Below are positions 2,362 through 46,144 of a stretch of DNA of 64,000 nucleotides, in pieces. Within the stretch, counting starts at the first letter, position 1. Each line of letters begins with the position of its first letter. The DNA is from Lucinisca nassula (Eukaryota > Mollusca > Bivalvia > Lucinida > Lucinidae). The position numbers and the translations under genes were made by a program. The stretch spans positions 116,275,527 through 116,339,526 of the forward strand of contig OY757017.1 in NCBI GenBank assembly GCA_963580285.1, written 5' to 3'. The notes under the pieces were generated by a model. The model did not search any database, was not told the DNA's origin, and worked only from the letters and a program-made list of their open reading frames with translations.

Positions 2362-2506
2362 ATGTTATAGCCCTTTCGCCGAAAAATTCCCCCGCCCTGG
2401 GACCCTTTAGTTTTACATTGACTTATATAGGAAATTAAAAAAATCTTCTTCTCTGAAACCGCAAAACCCAGGTCTTTGATACTTGTTGTGAAGCTTCATC
2501 TATTGA
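2362..2506. repeat. ~160-bp tandem array, left part
   Basis: One unit of the array that resumes at 4034 (shared words: CCCTTTGGTTTTACAT, CTTATATAGGGAAA, GAAACC..AGGCCCAGG, GAAGCTTCATCTA). The reverse-transcriptase element at 2507-4033 separates it from the rest. Confidence 0.8.
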
Positions 2507-3450
2507 ACTTCATAAGAATTATACACTTTGGTCATGTCAGAAAGTGTGATGCCCTCACCTTTCTACTTGACAATATTTATATTAGATTCGGTACTAAGTT
2601 ATTTAGACAAATTGTGGGTATTCCGATGAGTACGAATTGCGCACCTCTTGTGGCTGATCTGTTCTTGTATTGTTATGAAAGAGACTTCATATTGTCGCAT
2701 TCCATTGATAACCAATCTGAAATTATTGAAGCTTTTAGCTCCACTTCTAGATATTTAGATGATTTATTAAATATTGATAATACCTATTTCGATGGTTTGA
2801 TCAGTCAGATTTACCCCCCAGAACTTCAGTTAAGTAAAGCAAATTCTTCTGATACCGAGGCCCCGTTTTTGGATTTACATCTATCTATTGTAGATGGGTT
2901 TGTTTCGTGCAAAATTTATGATAAACGCGATGACTTTGATTTTGAGATTGTAAATTTTCCTTCTTTGTATGGTGATGTTCCTCGTGCGCCATCCTATAGC
3001 GTTTATATTTCGCAATTAATTCGATTTGCTAGAGTGTGTAGTCATGTAACTGACTTCAACACTCGTAATAAATTATTAACGGCTAAACTCCTTAATCAGG
3101 GTTATCGGTACCATAAACTACGCAAAGCCTTTTCAAAATTTTATAGACGGCATTCTGATTTAATTTCAAAATTCAATATAGGACTTAAATCTCTTCTGCA
3201 ACAAGGTCTACCGGAACCCGAATTTTATGGTGACTTAGTATATAAATTCAGAAAAATATATAACCGCAATGACTTCAGCACCCAATTTCGTAAAATCATT
3301 CTTCGATATAAAAAGATTGGGTACAACATGGATGTTATACGACAGACTGCATGCATGGTAGTTAACCCAATCACGATTGGCAACTTTGCTTCCCTCTTTA
3401 ATTGCACGCCGGTGTATCAGGCCTCAGATTCTATGACGGCTCCAACGTAA
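2476..3450 (+). CDS. Reverse transcriptase fragment of a retroelement
   Basis: A 324-codon open frame with the catalytic core of a reverse transcriptase. Residues 48-51 are GIPM and residues 93-96 are YLDD, the metal-binding palm motif; downstream are FLDLHLSI and KIYDKRDDFDFEIVNFP blocks and a conserved VVNPITI near the C-terminus. From memory this family is abundant in aquatic invertebrates and its motif style is closest to Penelope-like elements; I see no GIY-YIG nuclease, so that assignment is tentative. About the first ten residues are encoded by the flanking tandem repeat: the element is 5'-truncated and the ATG is accidental. The finger region and true start are missing. No frameshift over 300 codons suggests a young copy, but it cannot be autonomous. 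Confidence 0.85.
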   Translation: MILVVKLHLLNFIRIIHFGHVRKCDALTFLLDNIYIRFGTKLFRQIVGIPMSTNCAPLVADLFLYCYERDFILSHSIDNQSEIIEAFSSTSRYLDDLLNIDNTYFDGLISQIYPPELQLSKANSSDTEAPFLDLHLSIVDGFVSCKIYDKRDDFDFEIVNFPSLYGDVPRAPSYSVYISQLIRFARVCSHVTDFNTRNKLLTAKLLNQGYRYHKLRKAFSKFYRRHSDLISKFNIGLKSLLQQGLPEPEFYGDLVYKFRKIYNRNDFSTQFRKIILRYKKIGYNMDVIRQTACMVVNPITIGNFASLFNCTPVYQASDSMTAPT

Positions 3451-4033
3451 AGGCTTAATGAGAATTAGAGAAATCTAATTCTTGGTAATGTTGGTTGGTG
3501 CCCGGTGCTCTGTCTCTGGTTGGGCCCATCGGAGTCTAACTGTTGGTTTTCTTTTGCTCCAGCATTTCAGTGGTTTCTTGCTGTCGAGTCCTCACCGTTG
3601 TCTCACCTCTGTGGTTCTTTGATTTTTTTGTGTTCACGGAGATGTTGCACTGCTGAGTTAGGAGGCCTTCATGCGGACTGAACAAATAATTTGTCTAAAT
3701 CGCGACGGAAGTAAGGGCGAGGATTGTGGCCACGTAAAATCGATTTAATCCCCCCAGTGGAAATCTTTCCACTGACCGTTCCAAGGCGGTTCTTCTGTCG
3801 CGGTTTATTTATATTGTTGTTTGTTACTTACTATGTGTATCGCTTGTGTCTTTTTATTTGTGATGGCCATGTGGCCATTTTGTGGGAAAGTAACTGTCCT
3901 TATGGCCTTCCTTTGTTTAGGTTTCCATTTTGGTCTGGTCGCTTAATGTTTGTGTTTCTTTCCCTTTGGTGTCTTTGATGGGTGGAGTAAGTTAATTGTA
4001 TCGATTCCTGATCTTTGTTTTACTTCTACTTTT
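2507..4033 (+). mobile_element. 5'-truncated retroelement inserted in tandem array
   Basis: Boundaries are read from the interrupted repeat: the unit breaks after GAAGCTTCATCTATTGAAC and resumes at CTATCAAGGTTGTTCAAA. The insert holds the reverse-transcriptase frame (to 3450) and a ~580-bp 3' untranslated region. The last ~270 bp (from GACCGTTCCAAGGCGG to CTTCTACTTTT) recur alone at 5790-6024, 60371-60626 and, reversed, 63333-63416, as expected of a retroelement copied from its 3' end. No obvious target duplication. Confidence 0.8.
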
Positions 4034-5060
4034 CTATCAAGGTTGTTCAAATGATAGCCCTTGGACCAAAAATGCCCCCGCACCGGGGCAATTTGGTTTT
4101 ACATAGACTTATATAGGGAAAGCCTTTTAAAAATCTTCTTGTCTGAAACCAGAAGGCTTAGGTGTTTGATATTTGTTATGAAGCTTCGTCTGGTGGACCT
4201 CTATCAAGATTGTTCAAATTATAGCCCTGGGGCACAAAATGCCAACGCCCTGGGCCCTTTGGTTTTGCATGACTTTTTTACATAGGGAAAACCTTTAAAC
4301 ACTTCTTGTCTGAAACCAGAAGGCCCAGGTGTTTGATATTTGATATTAAGCTGTGGACCTGTATCACTCTGGTGCCACAGATGCCCTTGCCCCGGGGTCC
4401 TTTGGTTTTACATTGACTTATATGAAGAAAATCTTTAAAAATCATCTCTGAAACCGCAGGGCCTGGTCTTTGTAATTTTGTGTGAAGATTCATCTAGCAG
4501 AACATATTCTTTCAAGTTTGTTCAGATTATAGCCCTTGGGTCATAAATGGCCCCGCCCCGGGGCCCACTGATTTTATGGTAAACCTTTGAAAAAACTTCT
4601 TGATTGAAACAAAAAGGCCCAAGTTTTTGATATTTAGAATGATGCGTCATCTGGTGGACCGCTACTATGCTGTTCAAATTATAGTCGTGGGGCGAAAGGT
4701 GGCCAAGGCCCCACCAGTTTTGCATAGGCTTATATATGGGAAACCTTTAAAAATCTTCTTCTTTGAAACCACAAGGCCCAGGTCTTTGATATTTTGCTTG
4801 AAGCTTCATGGGGGTGACCTCTACCCAGATTTTCCATAGCATAGCCCTGGGGGTCAAAATGGTCCCGTCCCAGGGCCTACCGGTTTTACATAGACTTGCA
4901 TAGGGAAAATCTTTAAATACCTTCTCGTCTGAAACCAGAAGGCCCAAGTCTTTGATATTTGGAAGGAAGCTTCCTATAGCTGCCCTCTACCAGGATTGTC
5001 CAAACTATAACCCCATGGGGTCAAAAATGGACCCGCCCGAAGCCCATAGGTTTTATATTG
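4034..5060. repeat. ~160-bp tandem array (six degenerate units)
   Basis: Units of roughly 150-168 bp, tracked by the word GAAACC..AAGGCCCAGG at about 4145, 4313, 4450, 4605, 4765 and 4930. Related units lie at 47095-47524. Short frames here are repeat-derived. Confidence 0.85.
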
Positions 5061-5065
5061 GGTTA

Positions 5066-5500
5066 AGGCTGAGTCGTTTTATCTGTGTCTGGTGCACTAG
5101 GACCTGGCCCTCAATTTGCCTAGACAGTGACATTCAAGTCAGCTCTGTATTGTCAAAGGCAACAACTGACCACTAACCACCCCTCCTCCTCCCTTTGTCA
5201 CCATGTGATAATTAGTAAGACTGAGCCGCATCATCTTCTTCTGTTGCACTAGGACCTGACTCTAAATGGCCACCATGTGTCCAGATAGTGACATAAGTCA
5301 GCGCTGTATTGTCAAGGGGAACTCATATGTCTAACATCTAATGCCATTTCTTGCAGCCCCCCCCCCCCCTCAACGATGCATTGTAAGTTAGACTGCGCAA
5401 ATTCATCTCCATGCACTAGGACATGACCCTCAATGGCCAGAAGGTGCCCAGATAGTAACATACAAGCCAGCTCTGTAGAAAAGAGCTTTTGAAAGACTTC
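5066..5500. repeat. Second tandem repeat, three ~160-bp units
   Basis: Units start near 5066, 5218 and 5390 and share TGCACTAGGACCTG..CC, CAGATAGTGACAT and AAGTCAGCTCTGTATTGTC. A poly-C run (about 5357-5370) lies in the second unit. Confidence 0.8.
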
Positions 5501-5789
5501 ATTCTCAGAAAGAACATAATCCGGAAGGAAAGTTCCATGGGTGACCCTCTGACAAAAATAGTTTCGCTCCACTAAACATAATAGTCACCAAAACGAATCG
5601 ATAAACAAGCTTTAAAATGACTTCTACTACTAAATAGGTAGACTGACTTTGAAATAATTTCACAGAAATGTTCCTTGGGTCACTTTCAACCGAAATGGCT
5701 TAAACCATCCACTCCACCTTATTTTACCTACCACTTTTTCTGTTCAATAAGGATCAGGTGAGCGATCCAGGGCCATTATGGTCCTCTTG
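5501..5789 (+). repeat. Array 3' end with terminal hairpin
   Basis: The stretch ends with a small hairpin around AGGGCCATTATGGTCCT, followed by CTTG. The same 'hairpin then CTTG or CTGG' ending closes the arrays at 15928, 41462 and 52585, a layout like the 3' end of Helitron/Helentron elements. That link is inference. Confidence 0.45.
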
Positions 5790-6024
5790 TGTTTGTTATG
5801 GTTTGTCTTTGAGTGTGTGTATAAATTATATCTTTTTTATTTTGGATAGCCAATTTTGCATTTGGCGGGTAGTAACTGTCCTTCTGGATTTCCGCTCTTG
5901 GTGTTTCCATTAGGGTCTGTTGATTCATGTTTGTGTTTCTTTCCATTTGGTGTCTCTGATGGGAGGTGTGGGTTAATTGTATCGATTCCTGATAATTGCC
6001 TTCACTTCTACTTTTATATCGTCT
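5790..6024 (+). mobile_element. Retroelement 3' tail, 5'-truncated copy
   Basis: Aligns with the 3' untranslated end of the reverse-transcriptase element (3790-4033): TAACTGTCCTT.TGG, TTTCCATT.GGTCTG, CATGTTTGTGTTTCTTTCC and ATCGATTCCTGAT follow in the same order. No coding sequence remains. Confidence 0.8.
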
Positions 6025-6224
6025 TTGCTGCCAGTCCCCTGACTCTGAAAATATAAGAGAACAGAAAACAACATACTCGTTCAATGCAAACATAAACTGT
6101 AAACTAACGAAAACAGACAGCTGTTAAACTTGCACAATGGTCTAGTCCTTGACGACTCCTCATTCTTGCAAATAAAACAATTGAACAAGTCTGTGTAATG
6201 AGCGCCCCCGTTAATTTCACTTTG

Positions 6225-6700
6225 TACAGAAAGAACTGGGGTTTACTGGGGTATGCATTACTTTCCTTATTGCAGCTTCAAGATATGGGTTGTGGGTTTT
6301 CGTTTGAACCGCATCTACGTTCTCACCAATACTCACACCTATGTTTTTGAGTAAAAAAAGGAATAATTCCTTACATTAGGAAAACACGCCTATTCAAAGA
6401 TATTGGAAATACTTTACCACCAAAAATGACAATTTTTTTCAGATAAAAATGCTTTAAATTTCATTATTTCTGCTCGCCGAGGCGGTTCTAACGAGTACCC
6501 ACAAGCTATGTTTTTGAGCAGAAATAAGAAGAATAACGTATACCCCTGTAAACCCCAGTTTTACTGTATAAAAGTGGGGTTGAAGGGGGTCAAAATTATA
6601 GAGGTGTGTTCTCGTGATGATATTCCATCAGAAGGTTAACTAATTTGGAAATGAGAAAGAATGCACTATGCCGTACGGATGTGTTATCGTAATGGGATTT
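6225..6700. mobile_element. Family C MITEs, two overlapping copies
   Basis: Left, a diverged subfamily 2 half (ACTGGGGTTTACTGGGGTATGC); then a subfamily 1 copy from GGAAAACACGCCTATTC (6381) with half of the hairpin (GGCGGTTCTAACGAGTACCC, about 6482) and its end GGTGTGTTCTCGTGATG; then a subfamily 2 terminus (GTGTTATCGTAATGG, 6681). The order suggests one copy inserted in another. Confidence 0.7.
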
Positions 6701-7616
6701 ACGTTGGTTGGCGCATCAATAATACCGAATGAATTAGGGCAATTTGCAAGCTTAATGTATTTCCCACCCTGAGAGAAACGTTAATGTTGATAAAAAGGAT
6801 CATGACATTACATACTGTAAACCTTATAGAAGTTAATGATTTTTCTGTGTAAAGTTAATTGTTTTACCTATTCTAGAAACCTAGCTAATCTCTAACCAAA
6901 ATGTCAAACCATTACAGACGTTATAAATGGAGACAACGCATCTTAAAATGGACCAGGGCAATGGAAAATATATATTTTTCCAGCATTAGCGCATATGCAA
7001 TATAAAACCAGGGTGCATACCCACTGGGCTAGAATGCAACCATTCCCATATGCACGTGCATCCATCTACTGTATTTTAAAGGCTGGTTCCACAATGTGGG
7101 TGTACACGTGGAATTGAGCCTTTACTGGGCGAATATGTCTGAAGTCACATTTTTGTGTGTGGTGGCTCATGTAGCAGACAGTCTTAGAAATACAAATAAG
7201 GCCCGGAATGTTTGACTCCTGAGAGTAACAACCACACACAAAGAAAAAAACATTGCCATTATGACATCATAGTCGGGCTATATTATCCGTTCTTGAGTGG
7301 GACTGGGAATAATATTTCCAGACGAAAAATGCGATATATTTTCGTAGTAATGCTAAAAACTGCACATTATTGCTACAGTAAATAGATCTGCCGCATTATA
7401 TCTCGTCGAGTGGATGATCAAAGTGTCACATGAGAGACATGGAGCTTCGAGTGTGATGCATTAGATCCGGGAACATCCACGAGACGAGATCCTGTGTGGC
7501 AGACTAAGTACTATAGTAACAAGTACAGATTTTACAAAAAGCTATGTCTACGCTTAGCACATAATAAATGTGAATGTCTAAAGTTATATCCCAGAAATAT
7601 ATTTTGTACAATTAAC
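6701..7616. other. No recognisable feature
   Basis: Mixed-composition sequence without long frames, repeats or RNA genes that I can recognise. Confidence 0.5.
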
Positions 7617-9283: not shown

Positions 9284-9400
9284 TGCACGACCCGCAGAAA
9301 AAGCGACCGACTGAAGTCGGTTTTCTAAGAGTGCCCTAAAATCACCGTGTCATTCGGTCAATCGGTCATTCTGTCAGTCTGTCAGTCTGTCTGTCCGTCC

Positions 9401-12400
9401 GTAACCCGTTTGTGAAAATTGGTGATAGTGACTTAACCGCTTGGAATATTTAAACAATTTTTGGCATACTGATAGATATCAATGAGGTCTAACCAATGAA
9501 CTTGAGAAATATAACATTCCATTTAGTATAGCCTCGCCGAGGCGAAAAATGTGAAAATTTTCGAACTGCTTCTCCTCGGAAACCGTTGGGCCGATTGAAG
9601 TCAAATTTCATATGGAGCCTCTATGGGATGGGGGAAACCAAAATTTGCTCATGGGGTCCAGGTCACATGACCAAAATGGCCGCCAAGCCATATATGGTCT
9701 TTCTGGCTGTCCGTTCCTAACCCGTTTGTGAAAATTGGTGATAGTGACTTAACCGCTTGGAATATTTCAACAATTTTTGGCATACTGATAGATATCAATG
9801 AGATCTAACCAATGAACTTGCGAAATATTACATTCCATTCAGTATAGCCTCGCCGAGGCGAAAAATCCGTAACCCGTTTGTGAAAATTGGTGATAGTGAC
9901 CTAACCACTTGGAATATTTAAACAATTTTCGGCATACTGATAGATATCAATGAGATCTAACCAATGAACTTGCGATATATTACATTCCATTTAGTATAGC
10001 CTCGCCGAGGCGAAAAATGTGAAAATTTTCGAACTGCTTCTCCTCGGAAACCGTTGGGCCGATTGAAGTCAAATTTCATATGGAGCCTCTTTGGGATGGG
10101 GGAAACCAAAATTTGCTCATGGGGTCCAGGTCACATGACCAAAATGGCCGCCAAGCCATGTTTGGTCTGTCTGTCTGTCCGTCCGTAACCCGTTTGTGAA
10201 AATTGGTGATAGTGACTTAACCGCTTGGAATATTTAAACAATTTGTGGCATACTGATAGATATCAATGAGATCTAACCAATGAACTTGCGAAATATTACA
10301 TTCCATTTAGTATAGCCTCGTCGAGGCGAAGAATCCGTAACCCGATTGTGAAAATTGGTGATAGTGACTTAACCGCTTGGAATATTTAAACAATTTTTGG
10401 CATACTGATAGATATCAATGAGACCTAACCAATGAACTTGGATGTATTACATTCTATTAAGTATAGCCTCGCCGAGGCGAAAAATGTGAAAATTTTCGAA
10501 CTCGGCTTCTCCTCGAAAACCGTTGGGCCGATTGAAGTCAAATTTCATATGGCGCCTCTATGGGATGGGGAAACCAAACTTTGCTCATGGGGTCCAGGTC
10601 ACATGACCAAAATGGCCGCCAAGCCATATATGGTCTGTCTGTCTGTCCGTCCGTAACCCGTTTGTGAAAATCGGTGATAGTGACTTAACCACTTGGAATA
10701 TTCAAACAATTTTTGGCATGCTGATAGATATCAATGAGATCTAACCAAAAAACTGGCGAAATATTACATTCCATTTAGTATAGCCTTGCTGAGGCGAAAA
10801 TACCGTAACCCGATTGTGAAAATTGGTGATAGTGACTTAACCGCTTGGAATATTTAAACAATTTTTGGCATACTGATAGATATCAATAATATCTAACCAA
10901 TGAACTTGAGAAATATAACATTCCATTTAGTATAGCCTCGCAAAGGCGAAAAATGTGAAAATTTTCGAACTGCTTCTCCTCGGAAACCGTTGGGCCGATT
11001 GAAGAAAAATTTCATATGGAGCCTCTATGGGATGGGGGAAACCAAAATTTGCTCATGGGGTCCAGGTCACATGACCAAAATGGCCGCCAAGCCATATATG
11101 GTCTGTCTGTCTGTCCGTCCGTAACCCGTTTGTGAAAATTGGTGATAGTGACTGAACCGCTCGGAATATTTCAACAATTTTTGGCATACTGATAGATATC
11201 AATGAGATATAACCAATGAACATGCGAAATAATACATTCCATTTTGTATAGCCTCGCCGAGGCGAAAAATCCGTGACCCGTTTGTAAAAATTGGTGATAG
11301 TGACCTAACCGCTTGGAATATTTAAACAATTTTTGGCATACTGATAGGTATCAATGAGGTCTAACCAATGAACTTGCGATATATTACATTCCATTTAGTA
11401 TAGCCTCGCCGAGGCGAAAAATGTGAAAATTTTCGAACTGCTTCTCCTCGGAAACCGTTGGGCCGATTGAAGGCAAATTTCATATGGAGCCTCTATGGGA
11501 TGGGGGAAACCAGAATTTGCTCATGGGGTCACATGACCAAAATGGCCGCCAAGCCATGTTTGGTCTGTCTGTCTGTCCGTCCGTAACCCGTTTGTGAAAA
11601 TTGGTGATAGTGACTTAACCGCTTGGAATATTTAAACAATTTTTGGCATACTGATAGATATCAATGAGATCTAACCAATGAACTTGCGAAATATTACATT
11701 ACATTTAGTATAGCCTCGCCGAGGCGAAAAATCCGTAACCCGATTGTGAAAATTGGTGATAGTGACTTAACCGCTTGGAATATTTAAACAATTTTCGGCA
11801 TACTGATAGATATCAATGAGATCTAACCAATGAACTTGGAAATATTACATTCCATTCAGTATAGCCTCGCCGAGGCGAAAAATGTGAAAATTTTCGAACT
11901 GCTTCTCCTCGGAAACCGTTGGGCCGATTGAAGTCAAATTTCATATGGAGCCTCTATGGGATGGGGGAAACCAAACTTTGCTCATGGGGTCCAGGTCACA
12001 TGACCAAAATGGCCGCCAAGCCATATATGGTCTGTCTGTCTGTCCGTCCGTAACCCGTTTGTGAAAATTGGTGATAGTGACTTAACCGCTTGGAATATTT
12101 AAACAATTTTGGCATGCTGAAAGAAATCAATGAGATCTAACCAATGAATTTGCGAAATATTACATTCCATTTAGTATAGCCTTGCCGAGGCGAAAAATCC
12201 GTAACCCGATTGTGAAAATTGGTGATAGTGACTTAACCGCTTGGAATATTTAAACAATTTTTGGCATACTGATAGATATCAATGAGATCTAACCAATGAT
12301 TTTGCGAAATATTACATTCCATTTAGTATAGCCTCGCCGAGGCGAAAAATGTGAAAATTTTCGAACTGCTTCTCCTCGGAAACCGTTGGGCCGATTGAAG

Positions 12401-13468
12401 TCAAATTTCATATGGAGCCTCTATTGGATGGGGGAAACCAAAATTTGCTCATGGGGTCCAGGTCACATGACCAAAATGGCCGCCAAGCCATATATGGTCT
12501 GTCTGTCCGTCCGTAACCCGTTTGTGAAAATTGGTGATAGTGACTTAACCGCTTGAATATTGGTGTATACTAAAGTATAAGATATTTTTTTGTTCTTACG
12601 ATAAGGCGCATTTATTGGGGGAACCGTTTTAAACAATTTTTGGCATACTGATAGATATCAATGAGAGCTAACCAATGAACTTGCGAAATATTACATTCCA
12701 TTTAGTATAGCCTCGCCGAGGCGAAAAATGTGAACATTTTCGGACTGCTTCTTCTCGGAAACCGTTGGGCCGATTGAAGTCAAATTTCATATGGAGCCTC
12801 TATGGGATGGAGGAAACCAACATTTGCTCATGGAGTCCAGGTCACATGACCAAAATGGCCGCCAAGCCATATATGGTCTGTCTGTCTGTCTGTCCGTCCG
12901 TAACCCGTTTGTGAAAATTGGTGATAGTGACTTAACCGCTTGGAATATTTAAACAATTTTGGCATACTGATAGATATCAATAAGATCTAACCAATGAACT
13001 TGCGAAATATTACATTCCATTTAGTATAGCCTCGCTGAGGCGAAAAATGTGAAAATTTTCGAACTGCTTCTTCTAGGAAACCGTTGGGCCGATTGAAGTC
13101 AAATTTCATATGGAGCCCCTATGGGATGGGGCTAATTAAAATTTGCTCATGGGGTCCAGCTGACGTGACCAAAATGGCCGCCAAGCCATATATGGTCTGT
13201 CTGTCTGTCTGTCCGTCCGTAACCCGTTTGTGAAAATTGGTGATAGTGACTTAACCTCTTGGAATATTTAAACAGTTTTTGGCATACCGATAGATATCAA
13301 TGAGATCTAACCAATGAACTTGCGAAATATTATATTCTATTTAGTATAGCGTCGCAGAGGCGAAAAAAAATGAAAATTTTCGAACTGCTTCTCTTCGGAA
13401 ACCGTTAGGCCGATTGAAGTCAACTTTCATATGGAGCTTCTATGGGATGGGGGAAACCAAAATTTGCA
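9401..13468 (+). repeat. Higher-order satellite array (152 + 315 bp)
   Basis: Module a (about 152 bp) runs from CCGTAACCCGTTTGTG to GCCTCGCCGAGGCGAAAAAT; module b (about 165 bp) from GTGAAAATTTTCGAACTGC to GGTCTGTCTGTCTGTCCGT. Starts of CCGTAACCC at about 9401, 9716, 9869, 10186, 10336, 10652, 10804, 11120, 11272, 11582, 11734, 12050, 12199 and 12513 give strictly alternating steps of about 315 and 152 bp: the repeat is a+b then a. After 12560 only a+b units occur. Each module b ends in a CTGT/CCGT microsatellite. Confidence 0.93.
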
Positions 13469-13660
13469 TATGTATGTGGATGCATGGCAGTTTTCGGATG
13501 TGTAGTTTAGTTCAACATTCCATACATTTGGAGACTGTATTTTGTAAATAATTTTTGTTGTCTAACTTTAAGAGGGCCACGTGGAAGATTAGTGTATAGC
13601 TAAATGTGTTTACCCTCATTGAATAAAATCGATTATTATTATTATTATTATTTTTATTAT
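13469..13660 (+). repeat. Array break with SINE family D tail
   Basis: The array stops inside module b and is replaced by unrelated sequence, then from 13571 by the 3' part of a family D SINE (GAGGGCCACGTGGAAGATTAG, then a (TTA)n tail). The second TGCACGACCCGC end begins immediately after the TTATTAT tail, consistent with insertion at a T|T site. Confidence 0.7.
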
Positions 13661-15928
13661 TGCACGACCCGCAGAAAAAGCGACCGACTGAAGTCGGTTG
13701 ATTTTCTAAGAGTGTCCTAAAATCACCGTGTCATTCTGTCATTCTGTCAGTCTGTCAGTCCGTCCGTAACCCGTTTGTGAAAATTGGTGATAGTGACTTA
13801 ACCGCTTGGAATATTTAAACAATTTTTGGCATACCGATAGATATCAATGAGATCTAACCAATGAACTTGCGAAATATTACATTCCATTTAGTATAGCCTC
13901 GCCGAGGCGAAAAATGTGAAAATGTTCGAACTCAGCTTCTCCTCGGAAACTGTTGGGCCGATTGAAGTCAAATTTCATATGGAGCCTCTATGGGATGGGG
14001 GAAACCAAAATTTGCCCATGGGGTCCAGGTAATATGACCAAAATGGCCGCCAAGCCATATATGGTCTGTCTGTCTGTCCGTCCGTAACCCGTTTGTGAAA
14101 ATTTGTGATAGTGACTTAACACCTTGGAATATTTAAACAATTTTTGGCTTACTGATAGATATCAATGAGATCTAACCAATGAATTTGCGAAATATTACAT
14201 TCCATTTAGTATAGCCTCGCCGAGGCGAAAAATGTGAAAATTTTCGAACTGCTTCTCCTCGGGCCGATTGAAGTCAAATTTCATATGGAGCCTCTATGGG
14301 ATAGGGGAAACCAAAATTTGCTCATTGGGTCCAGGTCACATGACAAAAATGGCCGCCAAGCCATATATGGTAAAAACCCTTCAAAAATAGTCTTCTCCAG
14401 AACCACTGGGCAGATTTTCACGAAACTTGATAAATAGCATCTGGGACGTAGGCCCATCATAAATTGCTAAAATGGACCCTGGGTTGACCTCGACCTGCTT
14501 TGTGCCTAGGTCAAACTTTGACACATATGCTTTTGTATTGGAAAAGTGAGAATGCATTTTATCCTGCAAACGATTCAGAATACAATACTAAAGTATAAGA
14601 TATTTTTTTGTTCTTACGATAAGGCGCATTTATTGGGGGAACCGTTTTAAACAATTTTTGGCATACTGATAGATATCAATGAGAGCTAACCAATGAACTT
14701 GCGAAATATTACATTCCATTTAGTATAGCCTCGCCGAGGCGAAAAATGTGAAAAAATGTGAAAATTTTCGAACTGCTTCTTCTCGGAAACCGTTGGGCCG
14801 ATTGAAGTCAAATTTCATATGGAGCCTCTATGGGATGGATGAAACCAACATTTGCTCATGGAGTCCAGGTCACATGACCAAAATGGCCACCAAGCCATAT
14901 ATGGTCTGTCTGTCTGTCTGTCCGTCCGTAACCCGTTTGTGAAAATTGGTGATAGTGACTTAACCGCTTGGAATATTTAAACAATTTTGGCATACTGATA
15001 GATATCAATAAGATCTAACCAATGAACTTGCGAAATATTACATTCCATTTAGTATAGCCTCGCTGAGGCGAAAAATGTGAAAATTTTCGAACTGCTTCTG
15101 CTCGGAAACCGTTGGGCCGATTGAAGTCAAATTTCATATGGAGCCCCTATGGGATGGGGCTAATTAAAATTTGCTCATGGGGTCCAGCTGACGTGACCAA
15201 AATGGCCGCCAAGCCATATATGGTCTGTCTGTCTGTCTGTCCGCCCGTAACCCGTTTGTGAAAATTGGTGATAGTGACTTAACCGCTTGGAATATTTAAA
15301 CAATTTTTGGCATACCGATAGATATCAATGAGATCTAACCAATGAACTTGCGAAATATTATATTCCATTTAGTATAGCGTCGCAGAGGCGAAAAATGTGA
15401 AAATTTTCGAACTGCTTCTCCTCGGAAACCGTTAGGCCGATTGAAGTCAACTTTCATATGGAGCTTCTATGGAATGGGAGAAACCAAAATTTGCTCATGG
15501 GGTCCAGGTCATAAGACCAAAATAGCCGCCAAGCCATATATGGTAAAAACGCTTCAAAAATAGACTTCTCCAGAACCACTGGGCAGATTTCCACGAAACG
15601 TGATAAATGGCATCTGGGACGTAGGCCCATCATAAATTGCTAAAATGCTGACCCTGGGTTGACCTTGACGTTCTTTGTGCCTAGGTCAAACTTTGACACA
15701 TATGCTTTTGTATTGGAAAATGTGAGAATGCATTTTATCTTGCAAACGATTAAGAATACAGTACTAAAGTATAAGATATATTTTTGCTCCTTACGATAAG
15801 GCGCATTTATTGGGGGAACCGTTTTAGGTCCAGGTCACATGACCAAAATGGCCGCCATACCCATATATGGTAACACTCATAAAGCTAAACGCATCCGGCG
15901 GGTCGTGCACTTCAGCTGAAGCACTGGT
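13661..15928 (+). mobile_element. Second, nested HINE-like element
   Basis: Starts with the same 5' end as at 9284 (TGCACGACCCGCAGAAAAAG) and shares the single 3' end at 15928. It carries a+b units and two copies of a further ~270-bp module (14371-14650 and 15543-15828, with CAAACTTTGACACATATGC); the tail of that module also appears alone at 12562-12632. Confidence 0.6.
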
Positions 15929-16264
15929 TTCTTCGTTTGAATCGCCTGAGTCGCCTGCAGGTTACCACCTATTTAGAATGGTCTCAGATTGACCTGTTTA
16001 TTTTTGTTACGACGTCTGTTATTGGGTTTGTCCGCCCTTGCTGGACACTAACCGACAGCGTCGTACCAGTACCTGCTGCTATTTTGCAGGGAGCAGCAGG
16101 TCACCACACATTGTTGTGCCTTTCAATATACTTTCATTGTTCCGTCACTTTGTTGTGTGAATTCGTTACAACTTGACCTGCTGCTGAATAGTGCTCGTTT
16201 TTCAGGGTTTTTATATCTACGAATACTACCGGAAAATCATGCAAACTCATATTAGCTCGCTAAG
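15929..16264. mobile_element. LTR-like block, right half
   Basis: Continuation of the block left at 9283, colinear with 24835-25170 and ending CTCGCTAAGATCGTGGCGAGG in both copies. After it the two copies diverge: here a protease-coding fragment follows. Confidence 0.65.
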
Positions 16265-16269
16265 ATCGT

Positions 16270-16428
16270 GGCGAGGAACCTTAAGTTTTCTGTAAGGCTT
16301 CTCATCCTGCCTAGTTTGAGACCTAGTTACAGTCGCAGCTGAGAAATGAGACATATCGGGAAGTTTTGATCCATCAATGTTACCGATAACCAAATCGTAA
16401 AACGTATCATCCATACACAAAGCTTCAA
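16270..16428 (-). pseudogene. LTR-retrotransposon protease, distal fragment
   Basis: Minus-strand reading, without an ATG, includes DLVIGNIDGSKLPDMSHFS and, further on, EKPYRKLKV. I recognise this from memory as the stretch after the protease in molluscan Ty3-type polyproteins. It lies on the far side of the 383-bp array from the DTG fragment (18491-18747) and reads in the same direction, so the array split one protease region. Downstream the frame is cut by the LTR-like block; no polymerase or integrase domain remains. Confidence 0.7.
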
Positions 16429-16470
16429 TTGTAGTACGTTTCCTCTGGCTTTCCTTGCCGGATCATTACA

Positions 16471-16516
16471 GGGTCACTGATGAGGCTTTATTAGCCGAAA
16501 CTACGTAGTATGGCCC
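16471..16516 (+). ncRNA. Hammerhead ribozyme, copy 1
   Basis: All conserved core parts are visible. Stem I: GGGTCA (16471-16476) pairs with TGGCCC (16511-16516), with one G-U pair. Core box CTGATGA is 16477-16483. Stem II: GGCT/AGCC with loop TTATT (16484-16496). Core box GAAA is 16497-16500. Stem III: ACTAC/GTAGT (16500-16509), with essentially no loop. The unpaired base before the cut is A16510, so cleavage is expected between 16510 and 16511. Stem I is open, so this is type I. The short loopless stem III may favour dimeric pairing between neighbouring copies, as proposed for other minimal hammerheads. Confidence 0.93.
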
Positions 16517-16853
16517 ATCTTCTTTCTTATGAATGTTTTCATTGCTCTTAAAGGAACTCATTTTTTATTTTTATTTGCCTTCACTGCAGCTGGTGTTGTG
16601 CCGTGTGGCGGCGGTAAAACGTCTCCCCGTACATCAACCATAGTGCAGTTTACATTTTACTTTTGGTCCTTTGAGATCATCGTGAATATTCTGAGAAATC
16701 AGAAATAAATCATCATTGGTTTAGACTCATTCTAGACAGGTTTTTAATTATTTGGAACCCCTTTGGATTTATATCAGTCTTTGAATCGACTGCCTATTCG
16801 AATTCGCAAAATTGTAGTACGTTTCCTCTGGCTTTCCTTGCCGGATCATTACA

Positions 16854-16899
16854 GGGTCACTGATGAGGCTTTATTAGCCGAAACTACGTAGTATGGCCC
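16854..16899 (+). ncRNA. Hammerhead ribozyme, copy 2
   Basis: Identical to copy 1 over the core; CTGATGA at 16860-16866, predicted cleavage after 16893. Confidence 0.93.
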
Positions 16900-17236
16900 A
16901 TCTTCTTTCTTATGAATGTTTTCATTGCTCTTAAAGGAACTCATTTTTTATTTTTATTTGCCTTCACTGCAGCTGGTGTTGTGCCGTGTGGCGGCGGTAA
17001 AACGTCTCCCCGTACATCAACCATAGTGCAGTTTACATTTTACTTTTGGTCCTTTGAGATCATCGTGAATATTCTGAGAAATCAGAAATAAATCATCATT
17101 GGTTTAGACTCATTCTAGACAGGTTTTTAATTATTTGGAACCCTTTTGGATTTATATCAGTCTTTGAATCGACTGCCTATTCGAATTCGCAAAATTGTAG
17201 TACGTTTCCTCTGGCTTTCCTTGCCGGATCATTACA

Positions 17237-17282
17237 GGGTCACTGATGAGGCTTTATTAGCCGAAACTACGTAGTATGGCCC
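17237..17282 (+). ncRNA. Hammerhead ribozyme, copy 3
   Basis: Identical to copy 1 over the core; predicted cleavage after 17276. Confidence 0.93.
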
Positions 17283-17619
17283 ATCTTCTTTCTTATGAAT
17301 GTTTTCATTGCTCTTAAAGGAACTCATTTTTTATTTTTATTTGCCTTCACTGCAGCTGGTGTTGTGCCGTGTGGCGGCGGTAAAACGTCTCCCCGTACAT
17401 CAACCATAGTGCAGTTTACATTTTACTTTTGGTCCTTTGAGATCATCGTGAATATTCTGAGAAATCAGAAATAAATCATCATTGGTTTAGACTCATTCTA
17501 GACAGGTTTTTAATTATTTGGAACCCTTTTGGATTTATATCAGTCTTTGAATCGACTGCCTATTCGAATTCGCAAAATTGTAGTACGTTTCCTCTGGCTT
17601 TCCTTGCCGGATCATTACA

Positions 17620-17665
17620 GGGTCACTGATGAGGCTTTATTAGCCGAAACTACGTAGTATGGCCC
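17620..17665 (+). ncRNA. Hammerhead ribozyme, copy 4
   Basis: Identical to copy 1 over the core; predicted cleavage after 17659. Confidence 0.93.
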
Positions 17666-18002
17666 ATCTTCTTTCTTATGAATGTTTTCATTGCTCTTAA
17701 AGGAACTCATTTTTTATTTTTATTTGCCTTCACTGCAGCTGGTGTTGTGCCGTGTGGCGGCGGTAAAACGTCTCCCCGTACATCAACCATAGTGCAGTTT
17801 ACATTTTACTTTTGGTCCTTTGAGATCATCGTGAATATTCTGAGAAATCAGAAATAAATCATCATTGGTTTAGACTCATTCTAGACAGGTTTTTAATTAT
17901 TTGGAACCCTTTTGGATTTATATCAGTCTTTGAATCGACTGCCTATTCGAATTCGCAAAATTGTAGTACGTTTCCTCTGGCTTTCCTTGCCGGATCATTA
18001 CA

Positions 18003-18048
18003 GGGTCACTGATGAGGCTTTATTAGCCGAAACTACGTAGTATGGCCC
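18003..18048 (+). ncRNA. Hammerhead ribozyme, copy 5
   Basis: Identical to copy 1 over the core; predicted cleavage after 18042. Confidence 0.93.
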
Positions 18049-18385
18049 ATCTTCTTTCTTATGAATGTTTTCATTGCTCTTAAAGGAACTCATTTTTTAT
18101 TTTTATTTGCCTTCACTGCAGCTGGTGTTGTGCCGTGTGGCGGCGGTAAAACGTCTCCCCGTACATCAACCATAGTGCAGTTTACATTTTACTTTTGGTC
18201 CTTTGAGATCATCGTGAATATTCTGAGAAATCAGAAATAAATCATCATTGGTTTAGACTCATTCTAGACAGGTTTTTAATTATTTGGAACCCTTTTGGAT
18301 TTATATCAGTCTTTGAATCGACTGCCTATTCGAATTCGCAAAATTGTAGTACGTTTCCTCTGGCTTTCCTTGCCGGATCATTACA

Positions 18386-18431
18386 GGGTCACTGATGAGG
18401 CTTTATTAGCCGAAACTACGTAGTATGGCCC
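18386..18431 (+). ncRNA. Hammerhead ribozyme, copy 6
   Basis: Lies in the partial last unit but is complete; predicted cleavage after 18425. With six sites the array transcript would release five full 383-nt monomers. Confidence 0.93.
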
Positions 18432-18490
18432 ATCTTCTTTCTTATGAATGTTTTCATTGCTCTTAAAGGAACTCATTTTTTATTTTTATT

Positions 18491-18747
18491 TCCCAGTGAA
18501 AAAAAGGACTATCAATGTTAATCATTGCCAAAGGATACCTTTGTGTGGATTCATCAATCAACATAACATCTGATTCCTTCCCTATTAACTGCCTTCCCGA
18601 AACCAAACTTCTCCGAACGACACAGCCTGTACACCCAGTATCTCTTAATACAACCACCTTTTTATTATTAGCCAATCCTTGTGCCGTCGGTAACCTTGCC
18701 TTTAAGAAGTAACAGACACCTTCCCTAGTTTCCTTACTACACTCCAC
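18491..18747 (-). pseudogene. Retrotransposon aspartic protease, proximal part
   Basis: Minus-strand frame with the retropepsin active-site motif DTG inside VVLRDTGCTGCVVRRSLV (about residues 32-49 of the open frame), preceded by a cysteine-containing linker. The frame runs into the 383-bp array at 18490. A T run just before the break (about 18502-18509 read on the minus strand) appears to shift the frame. The protease would process Gag-Pol inside virus-like particles. It follows Gag in the same direction. Broken by insertion, so non-functional. Confidence 0.8.
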
Positions 18748-19112
18748 CTATCCGAAATCAAAGGATCACCAACCTTTTCTTCAAAAATACTTCCAATCTC
18801 ATCACCTTTCCTAGTTACTTCCGTTTGACAAAAGCTAACCTGGCGTGCTGCGCCACGTGGTGTGCCATTATTCGTACCGCGTCTGCGAAAAGACCCTCTA
18901 AAATTACCACGACCACATGTATAACCACGACCTACATTCTGCGTATTCTCATTCTTAACCTGAGAACCTTGAGTCTCTACGCGCGTGTTAAAATTTTCCT
19001 TAACACCGCTATCCCCATCTCCAGTTGCTCCTACCTCTGCTCTATATAACTGTTTTCTGTCGAGGTTCTTAAAACATTTAATTGTTAAATGCCCCTTACC
19101 GCATATGCTACA
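18748..19112 (-). pseudogene. Gag nucleocapsid zinc-knuckle region
   Basis: Minus-strand reading contains CSICGKGHLTIKC (19112-19074), a zinc knuckle of the form CX2CX3HX4C, one residue shorter than the usual CX2CX4HX4C. A glycine/arginine-rich stretch typical of nucleic-acid-binding nucleocapsids follows. It is out of frame with the upstream Gag core; the shift lies near the run of four G (19219-19222). Confidence 0.75.
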
Positions 19113-19678
19113 CTTGATATCCGATCTACCACTCGGTTTGTTAGAGTCAACTTTGGCCTGTTTACCCTGCGCTGCGCCTCTATTATCGCGTTGCCCCTTA
19201 TTAATGCAACTAAAGACACCCCGCGCGCTTCTGCAAACAAATCTGCCTCCCTAGCCATTTCATCTAAATTACCAAACTGTTTTGGCTTCAGATGTACATA
19301 CAGTTCTCTATTACATGACTCCAGGAACTGATCCCTTGCCATGAAATCAAAGACAGCCGGAAAAGTTTTTTCTATCTTTGCCATATTAAGCCATTTTTCT
19401 AAATAACTTCTCAATCTACTACTGAACTGTATGAACTTTTCTGATTTCTCGGGCCTACTATAACGAAACTGCTTCCTAAATCCGCGCTCTGCCATGTCAA
19501 AATTCTTTAATACAGCATCCTTTAACTTATCATAATCCGCCGCATCCTCATTTGACAACCGGTCATATACATCAAGTGCGCGCCCTTTGAGCAATGCACT
19601 TAAATACGCGGCCCAAACACTCTTATCCCATTCATTAGCCGTAGAATATTTCTCAAACCTAGATAAATAACTATCCAT
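19113..19678 (-). pseudogene. Retrotransposon Gag capsid core
   Basis: Starts MDSYLSRFEKY and contains WAAYLSALLKGRALDVYDRL and DQFLESCNRELYVHL, the signature of Ty3-type Gag capsid domains (SCAN-like helical fold) that I know from molluscan elements. About 150 residues are intact before the frameshift near 19220. It would assemble the particle that packages the element RNA. Upstream, in the same frame, a TGA (19718-19720) separates it from the coiled-coil N-terminal region. Confidence 0.85.
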
Positions 19679-19717
19679 TTTATCTTTACCCTCTTCAAAA
19701 TAAGGTAACTTAGGATC

Positions 19718-20150
19718 TCAGGCATGAGCCACATTCTTAGCTTTTCGCTTTTCAAATTCTAGCTCGAGCTTCGCTCTCTGCATTTCTAATTGGTTCCTTA
19801 ATTCTTGGTGCTGTAGCTCAAACCCATGTTTTATTTGTTCTAAATGGGCCTCACTAATCTCTTTTGCCTCCCTTTCACTTTGAATGCGTGCCATTTCAAG
19901 CTCCTTATTAACATTCAACATAGCTAGTTCATGTACCCTTTCCTTTTCTTTTTCTGCCCTTTCCTTTTCCTCCCTTTCCTTTTCCTCCCTTTCCTTTTCC
20001 TCCCTTTCCTTTTCCTTTTCTTCAGACCTTAACCTTTCCAAATACCTTTGCTCTTGCCTTTCTGCCCACTCAATATCTTGCTGCACCTTAACACAATTTT
20101 GTAAATCTCTCCCCTCTTAACCTAACTCCCATTTGCATTAAACGCTCCAT
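19718..20150 (-). pseudogene. Gag N-terminal coiled-coil region
   Basis: About 120 residues of charged coiled coil with tandem EREEKEREEKE heptad-like repeats (19950-20040), ending at an in-frame TGA. The most likely original start is the ATG at 20150-20148, which begins MERLMQMG and is linked to the coiled coil by a one-base shift near 20090. Such N-terminal coiled coils precede Gag in this family. The TGA could be a decayed codon or a readthrough stop; the nearby frameshifts favour decay. Confidence 0.75.
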
Positions 20151-36058: not shown

Positions 36059-36460
36059 GGAGCGTGATAGCTCAGTGGTTAGTGCACTTGCCTCTGATGC
36101 TAGAGGTCCCGGGTTCGATCCCCGGCACCGGCGATAAAATTTCGGTAACTGAACACGCTCCATTGGCATCATTTGCAGTGTATTCAACCTGGAGTGTATG
36201 TAATATACACCTGCGGTAATGGTCAAAGGTGACCAACGCAGTATCAGAAGATAGATAGCAGGGATAAATGTCATAAAGTGCACCGTCCTTCGGATGGGGA
36301 CGTTAACTGGAGGCCCCCTGTGCAGGGAGAACCATCCCCTGTGCAGGTTAAAGATCCCTATCGTAATTACATGATTACTGTGTAGGCTTTCATCCTGCAA
36401 AACCTGGAGTGTATGTATAACGGTCAAATGTGACCGACGCAGTATCAGTAGATAGACAGA
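36059..36460 (+). repeat. tRNA-derived SINE with conserved central domain
   Basis: tRNA-like head 36060-36131 with A box TAGCTCAGTGG (36068-36078) and B box GGTTCGATCC (36112-36121), then a body with GTCCTTCGGATGGGGACGTTAA. The last motif resembles the widely shared central domain of eumetazoan SINEs (the 'Nin' domain, from memory). A ~45-bp stretch (ACCTGGAGTGTATGTA, ACGCAGTATCAG) is repeated at 36190-36250 and 36405-36450. Confidence 0.85.
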
Positions 36461-41464: not shown

Positions 41465-41724
41465 GGTTATAAAATTCTCATTCTATCATAACAGCCTATA
41501 TATAGATATGAGTTTTGTGATCAACGAACATCACGAAAACATGCCTGTATAATTCTGTACACGCATGATAACATCCAGTAAGCTTTCATAGCAATCAAAT
41601 GATCATCAGTGCTGTCATTGTGATCGATAATCAATTAGTAATCACTGAACATATTGAAGATTTGGTCATATTTTTACCTCTTGCCATAACATCTTTCTTA
41701 TCATGTGTTATACATTAGGCTACG

Positions 41725-41843
41725 GCTACTGACAACCGGTTGTCACCAGCCTGTGAGGTTACAGACAACTGGTTGTCACCAGCCTGTGAGGCTGCTGACA
41801 ACCGGCTGTCACTAGCCTGTGAGGCTGCTGACAACCAGCTGTA
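41725..41843 (+). repeat. Left minisatellite terminal repeat
   Basis: About three and a half ~38-bp units, each with GACAACCGGTTGTC (itself a palindrome) or a variant and AGCCTGTGAGGCTGC. Confidence 0.9.
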
Positions 41844-46004: not shown

Positions 46005-46013
46005 GCTGGTTGT

Positions 46014-46118
46014 CAGCAGCCTCACAGGCTGGTGACAACTGGTTGTCAGCAGCCTCACAGGCTGGTGACAACTGGTTGTCAGCAGCCTCACAAGCTGGTT
46101 ACAACCGGTTGTCAGCAG
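46014..46118 (-). repeat. Right minisatellite terminal repeat
   Basis: Three to four ~38-bp units (GGTTGTCAGCAGCCTCACAG, GCTGGTGACAACT), reverse complement of the left terminus. Confidence 0.9.
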
Positions 46119-46144
46119 CCAGTTCCTATACATTACTGCGTGAT

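Follow-up and report, generated by a model that had tools for sequence, protein, structure and literature searches.

What is a short tandem array doing in the middle of a protein-coding element of Lucinisca nassula, and why does every one of its units carry a hammerhead ribozyme motif? The window, i.e., the whole stretch of 64,000 nucleotides that was analysed, had earlier been read from its letters alone, and this sequence-only reading had proposed a satellite of 383-bp units, each with a hammerhead, as a candidate retrozyme. Animal retrozymes are a known class of very small mobile elements whose spread is attributed to circles of RNA. Tandem Repeats Finder, a descriptor scan and a covariance model (R1, described below) confirm both the array and the hammerhead motif in every unit. 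Tandem Repeats Finder reports a period of 383 bp, 5.4 copies and 99% matches at positions 16427-18491: the array is present as claimed, but its extent is 1-2 bp longer at each end.

16427..18491, + strand: 383-bp retrozyme unit in 5.39 tandem copies (Tandem Repeats Finder, comparison of units, array ends)
18475..18491, + strand: last copy of the U-rich tract at unit positions 132-148, the longest in the unit, at whose 3' end the array terminates; putative start of reverse transcription

The units are arranged head-to-tail, with the sixth cut after unit position 148; the two ends of the array fall at different unit positions and the copy number is non-integral. Comparison of the five full units shows that units 2-5 are identical and that unit 1 is one base off, at unit position 333. 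The near-identity is therefore as had been described, but the recent amplification read from it is not needed to explain it, because one run of reverse transcription round a single circle leaves the same result. The last base of the longest U-rich tract is also the 3' end of the array and lies 66 nt beyond the last predicted cleavage site; a second T/A-rich run occupies unit positions 313-325. The 383-bp unit, present in 5.39 copies, lies within the ~150-450 bp of the short tandem repeats expected of retrozymes. Its GC content of 38.6% is under the 50% below which animal non-LTR retrozymes stay, and in keeping with their lack of coding capacity no stop-to-stop frame on the 383-nt circle exceeds 74 aa. 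On the + strand of the unit there was one AATAAA, at position 276, and no match to the patterns tried for the A-box and B-box of Pol III promoters or for a TATA sequence. Exact-pattern scans of genome_contigs found neither the hammerhead nor a non-ribozyme stretch of the unit, and the latter also had zero matches in viral_contigs; the collections scanned cover bacteria, archaea and viruses. A literature search of titles and abstract openings returned no 383-bp hammerhead satellite, though earlier publication is still possible.

The motif CTGATGAGGCTTTATTAGCCGAAA is found at 16477+383k for k = 0-5 (16477, 16860, 17243, 17626, 18009 and 18392), which bears out the claim of six ribozymes in one orientation at exact 383-bp steps. 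In all six units the + strand is predicted to form a type I hammerhead, in register, with cleavage predicted after A16510+383k, equivalent to unit position 82:

16471..16516, + strand: hammerhead ribozyme 1, type I, predicted cleavage after A16510 (descriptor scan, covariance model R1, array coordinates)
16854..16899, + strand: hammerhead ribozyme 2, predicted cleavage after A16893 (same basis)
17237..17282, + strand: hammerhead ribozyme 3, predicted cleavage after A17276 (same basis)
17620..17665, + strand: hammerhead ribozyme 4, predicted cleavage after A17659 (same basis)
18003..18048, + strand: hammerhead ribozyme 5, predicted cleavage after A18042 (same basis)
18386..18431, + strand: hammerhead ribozyme 6, predicted cleavage after A18425 (same basis)

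Stem I (GGGUCA/UGGCCC, in DNA GGGTCA/TGGCCC) has 6 bp and is joined by the core CUGAUGA to a 4-bp stem II (GGCU/AGCC) with the loop UUAUU (DNA TTATT), after which comes GAAA; the predicted cut follows the A of the triplet GUA and precedes UGGCCC. In all these parts the anatomy is the one first proposed: a 6-bp stem I, a 4-bp stem II with a TTATT loop, and a cleavage base A before TGGCCC. The exception is stem III, which had been given as 5 bp. The pairing segment is present, but it is a perfect palindrome without a loop (DNA ACTACGTAGT, RNA ACUACGUAGU), and consequently it can form only 3 bp with an ACGU tetraloop in cis, or else a 10-bp helix between two ribozymes. Because stem III has no loop of its own in cis, single ribozymes may be slow. 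This compact ribozyme offers a choice between a 3-bp stem III in cis and a 10-bp dimer helix.

The descriptor required the core CTGANGA with GAA, an A15.1-U16.1 pair, H17, and stems I/II/III of at least 4/3/2 bp. When both strands of the 64-kb window were scanned it returned the six array sites only, and neither the scan nor model R1 gave any hammerhead on the - strand of the window. In 644 dinucleotide shuffles of the window there were four relaxed descriptor matches, none of which had stems of at least 6, 4 and 3 bp. Since the units are copies of each other, the six hammerheads count as one independent observation. By sequence and model, each unit carries the type I hammerhead expected of an animal retrozyme.

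A covariance search had been suggested as a check on the motif, a failure to score it counting as refutation, and its outcome depends on the model. At curated cut-offs, Rfam reported no hammerhead family in the window: under a permissive threshold the best score was 20.3 bits for RF00008 at all six sites, against a cut-off of 48.5 bits, and the motif alone scored 17.0 bits for RAGATH-1, against a cut-off of 56.3 bits. For comparison we assembled a control set of phage ribozymes from IMG/VR, defined as hammerheads from their sequence by core and stem pairing. Two patterns yielded 14 + 47 stretches, which a stem filter reduced to 57 distinct sequences; the 10 that share the unit's stem-loop II were held out, and of the remaining 47 five with odd geometry were dropped. 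Model R1 was built from the 42 aligned type I hammerheads that were left, all with a stem-loop II other than the unit's. It scores all six array sites at 48.8 bits (E 2.2e-10, on a rough calibration), the next site reaching 13.0 bits. The held-out phage ribozymes (n = 10) score 57.0 to 67.0 bits, and the lower score of the array sites fits their missing loop III. The pair counts in the phage set are largely a matter of construction, because this core and stem pairing had also served to select its members. Outside the core and stems, the unit retains the columns that are at least 90% conserved in the phages, namely the A before stem I and the U and A in loop II; its cleavage base is A, against C in at least 90% of the 42. 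When Rfam was applied to five phage loci, none of the 11 hammerhead-family matches reached the curated cut-off. Phage type I hammerheads are thus missed equally, which argues that the Rfam result reflects strict cut-offs rather than a faulty motif. Rfam cut-offs can miss such ribozymes, and catalogues that rely on them may undercount.

The core and stem-loop II of the unit (CTGATGAGGCTTTATTAGCCGAAAC, 25 nt) are identical in 14 IMG/VR contigs. In a BLAST comparison of the unit with all 62 phage loci, matches at E < 1e-3 were confined to the hammerhead region, and the weak matches elsewhere (best E 0.004) fell in an AT-rich stretch. The simplest reading is therefore convergence: judged from these alignments, the unit and the phages most likely arrived independently at the same good loop. 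Two observations on the phages themselves may be added. In locus L062, from the pelagivirus phage AP013542.1, positions 301-326 match the unit's core and stem-loop II over 26 bp at 96%; this match, the sole one in the phage collection, lies in a gap between annotated genes and is possibly an unannotated hammerhead. In a second phage contig (L048), ~3.3 kb (3489-6813) contain several hammerhead-like motifs and three pistol ribozymes that exceed the Rfam cut-off.

Folding predictions separate the two strands. The + strand 383-nt circle has a predicted energy of -91.8 kcal/mol (z -2.5), as good a value being found in 1 of 200 dinucleotide shuffles; the - strand circle has z -0.8, with 42 of 200 shuffles as good. 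In the + circle 62% of bases are predicted to pair, as expected of the highly self-paired circles of retrozymes, and enforcing the hammerhead in it costs 2.6 kcal/mol. Two co-folded 52-nt copies give a double hammerhead of -41.1 kcal/mol; for one copy alone the best fold (-13.4 kcal/mol) is not a hammerhead, and the hammerhead fold has -12.6 kcal/mol. In the energy-model ensemble the probability of stem I is near 0 in a 503-nt stretch. Given flanks of 0, 25, 85 and 170 nt, the unit's stem I forms with a mean probability of 0.92, 0.03, 0.04 and 0.28, compared with phage medians (n = 57) of 0.88, 0.20, 0.11 and 0.05, i.e., below the phages at 25 and 85 nt and above them at 0 and 170 nt; because the energy model ignores tertiary contacts, these probabilities do not discriminate.

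Coding sequence of an element on the - strand, which we take to be Gypsy-like, directly flanks the array on both sides:

16250..16426, - strand: downstream part of the target, where the Gypsy-like frame continues (EALCMDDTFYDLVIGNIDGSKLPD...) (reading frame; relatives)
18492..18708, - strand: target, upstream side; aspartyl-protease-like LRDTGC motif (...INIDSPFF...) (reading frame; Pfam PF13650 below cut-off)
18702..20116, - strand: decayed Gypsy-like gag region, three overlapping or adjoining open frames (SCAN-like match; homologues of the middle frame)

The match to PF13650 is 14.4 bits here and 20.8 bits in a relative (P0252), both under the Pfam cut-off of 24.3 bits; the SCAN-like match to PF02023 in the gag region has 23 bits, under its cut-off of 27 bits, and the middle gag frame has 441 homologues at E of 1e-3 or better. 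The piece bearing LRDTGC stops at the array and the protein resumes beyond it. A search with the upstream piece matched 35 proteins, of which 20 were inspected. The pattern F[F/I][T/I]GK.E, which spans the insertion point, occurs in eight of 275 collected proteins, each time as GKTE; others among the 35 end earlier or differ in frame (for example P0241, with FFHWKN in the window's frame, and P0256). In the window the array is bordered by the lysine codon AAA on one side and by the glutamate codon GAA on the other; the threonine codon between them was therefore lost, or changed if the last bases of the array belong to the target. At each end 2-3 bases can be assigned to either side, and hence the target loss is known only to be small, roughly 0-6 bp. 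No target-site duplication is present at the array ends. This does not exclude membership of the retrozymes, since the published account gives a target-site duplication of > 4 bp 'when present' (PMC7229834). We also considered the 10-bp direct repeat ATCAATGTTA (16373-16382 and 18511-18520) as a target duplication and rejected it: its copies are 44 and 19 bp away from the array, and each codes for Asn-Ile-Asp in the protein that was interrupted (INIDS, GNIDGS).

The array is very probably a non-LTR (animal-type) retrozyme locus, produced through an RNA-circle cycle, as proposed here, and a single cDNA insertion. The earlier label of retrozyme candidate was well chosen, because a type I hammerhead in each 383-bp tandem unit is the anatomy described for animal retrozymes (PMC7229834). 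What the analysis shows is the array, its motif, a predicted self-pairing confined to one strand, the site of insertion and the absence of a duplication; we infer that the array is transcribed, that its RNA is cleaved and circularised, that a circle served as template and which enzyme copied it. The array would be transcribed on its + strand, and each hammerhead would cut after the A at unit position 82, either alone or paired through a shared 10-bp helix III. The path from oligomer through hammerhead cleavage and RtcB-type closure to reverse transcription of the circle in trans would fit the published retrozyme cycle. A reverse transcriptase acting in trans would start on the U-rich tract and make more than five turns of the RNA circle; the preferred candidate in the literature is that of a Penelope-like element, and PMC7229834 likewise names the enzyme mobilising animal retrozymes as a candidate only, with Penelope-like elements as a strong one. 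The resulting cDNA would then have been inserted once, in the protease region of the Gypsy-like element, without target duplication. The 5.39 copies, the near-identical units and the ends at different unit positions all fit one cDNA made from a circle.

A more exact version of this history is possible though doubtful, and we offer it tentatively: the locus may be the frozen footprint of one circle-templated event, in which a primer ending in AAA at a cut in the Gypsy-like element paired with the UUU that ends the U-rich tract 66 nt past the cleavage site, and a Penelope-like enzyme copied 5.39 turns and joined the product without duplication. If this is true and the junction is common to other copies, it would show where reverse transcription of an animal retrozyme starts and would tie these elements to internal initiation of the Penelope type. 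A near-uniform array inside a protein-coding element gives a readable and testable insertion junction.

The last step could also have been different. A fragment of an array, or extrachromosomal circular DNA derived from one, may have entered a break in the Gypsy-like copy through end joining at microhomologies, which would account for the lack of target duplication, the little or no target loss and the 2-3 ambiguous bp at each end, and is compatible with assignment to the retrozyme family. We consider it unlikely, in view of where the 3' end lies: the unit's longest U-rich tract (132-148) finishes there, and an end anywhere in the tract is expected by chance in ~17/383 of cases. That coincidence, however, concerns one junction and was judged after the fact; one junction is insufficient, and for this reason circle-templated insertion is not to be preferred to end joining.

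A further objection is that the array could be an ordinary satellite, expanded at the DNA level by unequal exchange or rolling-circle DNA, with the hammerhead a relic that had no role in its spread. The identity of four of the five full units is also expected from unequal exchange or gene conversion, and a single locus was examined. However, the core bases, the stems and the loop bases shared with phages are all intact, the predicted self-pairing is strand-specific, and the almost clean interruption of a protein-coding element points to insertion rather than local growth. We therefore regard an ordinary satellite as improbable.

It is very improbable that the array is a pseudo-LTR, or a fragment of the tail, of some Penelope-like element. 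Such elements do carry type I hammerheads in tandem, and one of them starts reverse transcription internally, 3' of the hammerhead cut (PMC11167929). Their hammerheads are, however, minimal, without helix III or loop contacts, as described in PMC7761336, whereas the unit keeps helix III and the loop bases, has no frame longer than 74 aa, and lacks the reverse transcriptase and GIY-YIG frame that stands between pseudo-LTRs in Penelope-like elements. Plant LTR retrozymes have a type III hammerhead inside LTRs; here helix I is open (type I) and the units are head-to-tail. We give the least credence to an origin from an exogenous, viroid-like circular RNA that replicates from RNA to RNA and was copied into DNA: the predicted self-paired 383-nt circle with a hammerhead would suit it, but the other strand has neither a hammerhead nor excess self-pairing, when some members carry ribozymes on both polarities (classes other than the hammerhead being sought here through Rfam only), and retrozymes already explain tandem genomic copies in animals.

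The window has several other features. An open frame on the + strand at 2431-3450 encodes a reverse transcriptase with an RYLDDLL motif; of the 7998 candidates scored against it, 7840 reached E of 1e-3 or better. The frame itself matched no Pfam family; among its relatives one of those listed carries RVT_1 and some carry PF26215, and it may belong to a Penelope-like element. Among the 120 relatives listed, two come from metagenome-assembled genomes of Candidatus Thiodiazotropha. This bacterium lives in lucinid clams, and the two matches are probably clam DNA in symbiont assemblies, in keeping with a bivalve host. Tandem Repeats Finder also reports a complex satellite with periods of ~468, 320 and 152 bp at 9398-15544, in which neither the descriptor scan nor model R1 found a hammerhead. 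Rfam gives 35.1 bits (model positions 8-63) to a partial tRNA-like sequence on the + strand at 36068-36125, perhaps a SINE head. Two similar-looking 33-bp tandem repeats with many TGGTGACAA and TTGTCA words are found at 41724-41836 and 46006-46120.

We can finally set the retrozyme array beside known systems. By the published description, it resembles animal non-LTR retrozymes in having one type I hammerhead in each of its tandem units, which measure a few hundred bp, GC below 50%, no long frame and a predicted self-paired circle (PMC7229834). Further traits that characterise the published class are the absence of an LTR, primer-binding site or polypurine tract, many dispersed genomic copies, and self-cleavage with unit-length linear and circular RNA in tissue. 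The retrozymes of Mytilus galloprovincialis are 350-390 bp long with type I hammerheads, have been found as circular RNA, are circularised by RtcB in vitro and belong to a class with species-specific unit sequences (Cervera and de la Pena 2020, PMC7229834). The class is known, and the 383-bp family is probably a new member of the animal retrozymes. The mussel hammerheads, in that account, lack most of the loop-loop contact bases, whereas the unit keeps the bases conserved in phages. The palindromic stem-loop III, which permits a double hammerhead, recalls by description the hammerheads of newt and axolotl satellites and of Aedes repeats (PMC3088659); those of Aedes have a 10-bp helix III in the same source, and newt and viroid ribozymes act as dimers according to PMC3088659 and PMC6155905. 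Unlike the axolotl ribozyme, whose stem III is given as 1-2 bp in PMC7229834, the unit has 3 bp and a tetraloop in cis. With Penelope-like elements such as PAc of the anole it shares the hammerhead, the tandem arrangement, an internal start of reverse transcription (putative here) and an AT-rich target (PMC11167929). In PAc the hammerhead cut lies 26 bp into the reading frame and reverse transcription starts 111-118 bp into it (PMC11167929), i.e., ~85-92 nt past the cut, as compared with the 66 nt past the cut at which our array ends. It differs from these elements in its 383-bp unit without a long reading frame and in its complete helix III. With the phage type I hammerheads (L001-L061) it has in common the core and stem-loop II, the same in 14 contigs, and the A before stem I; unlike the unit, the phage hammerheads are not in one-unit tandem arrays, and their stem III carries a loop.
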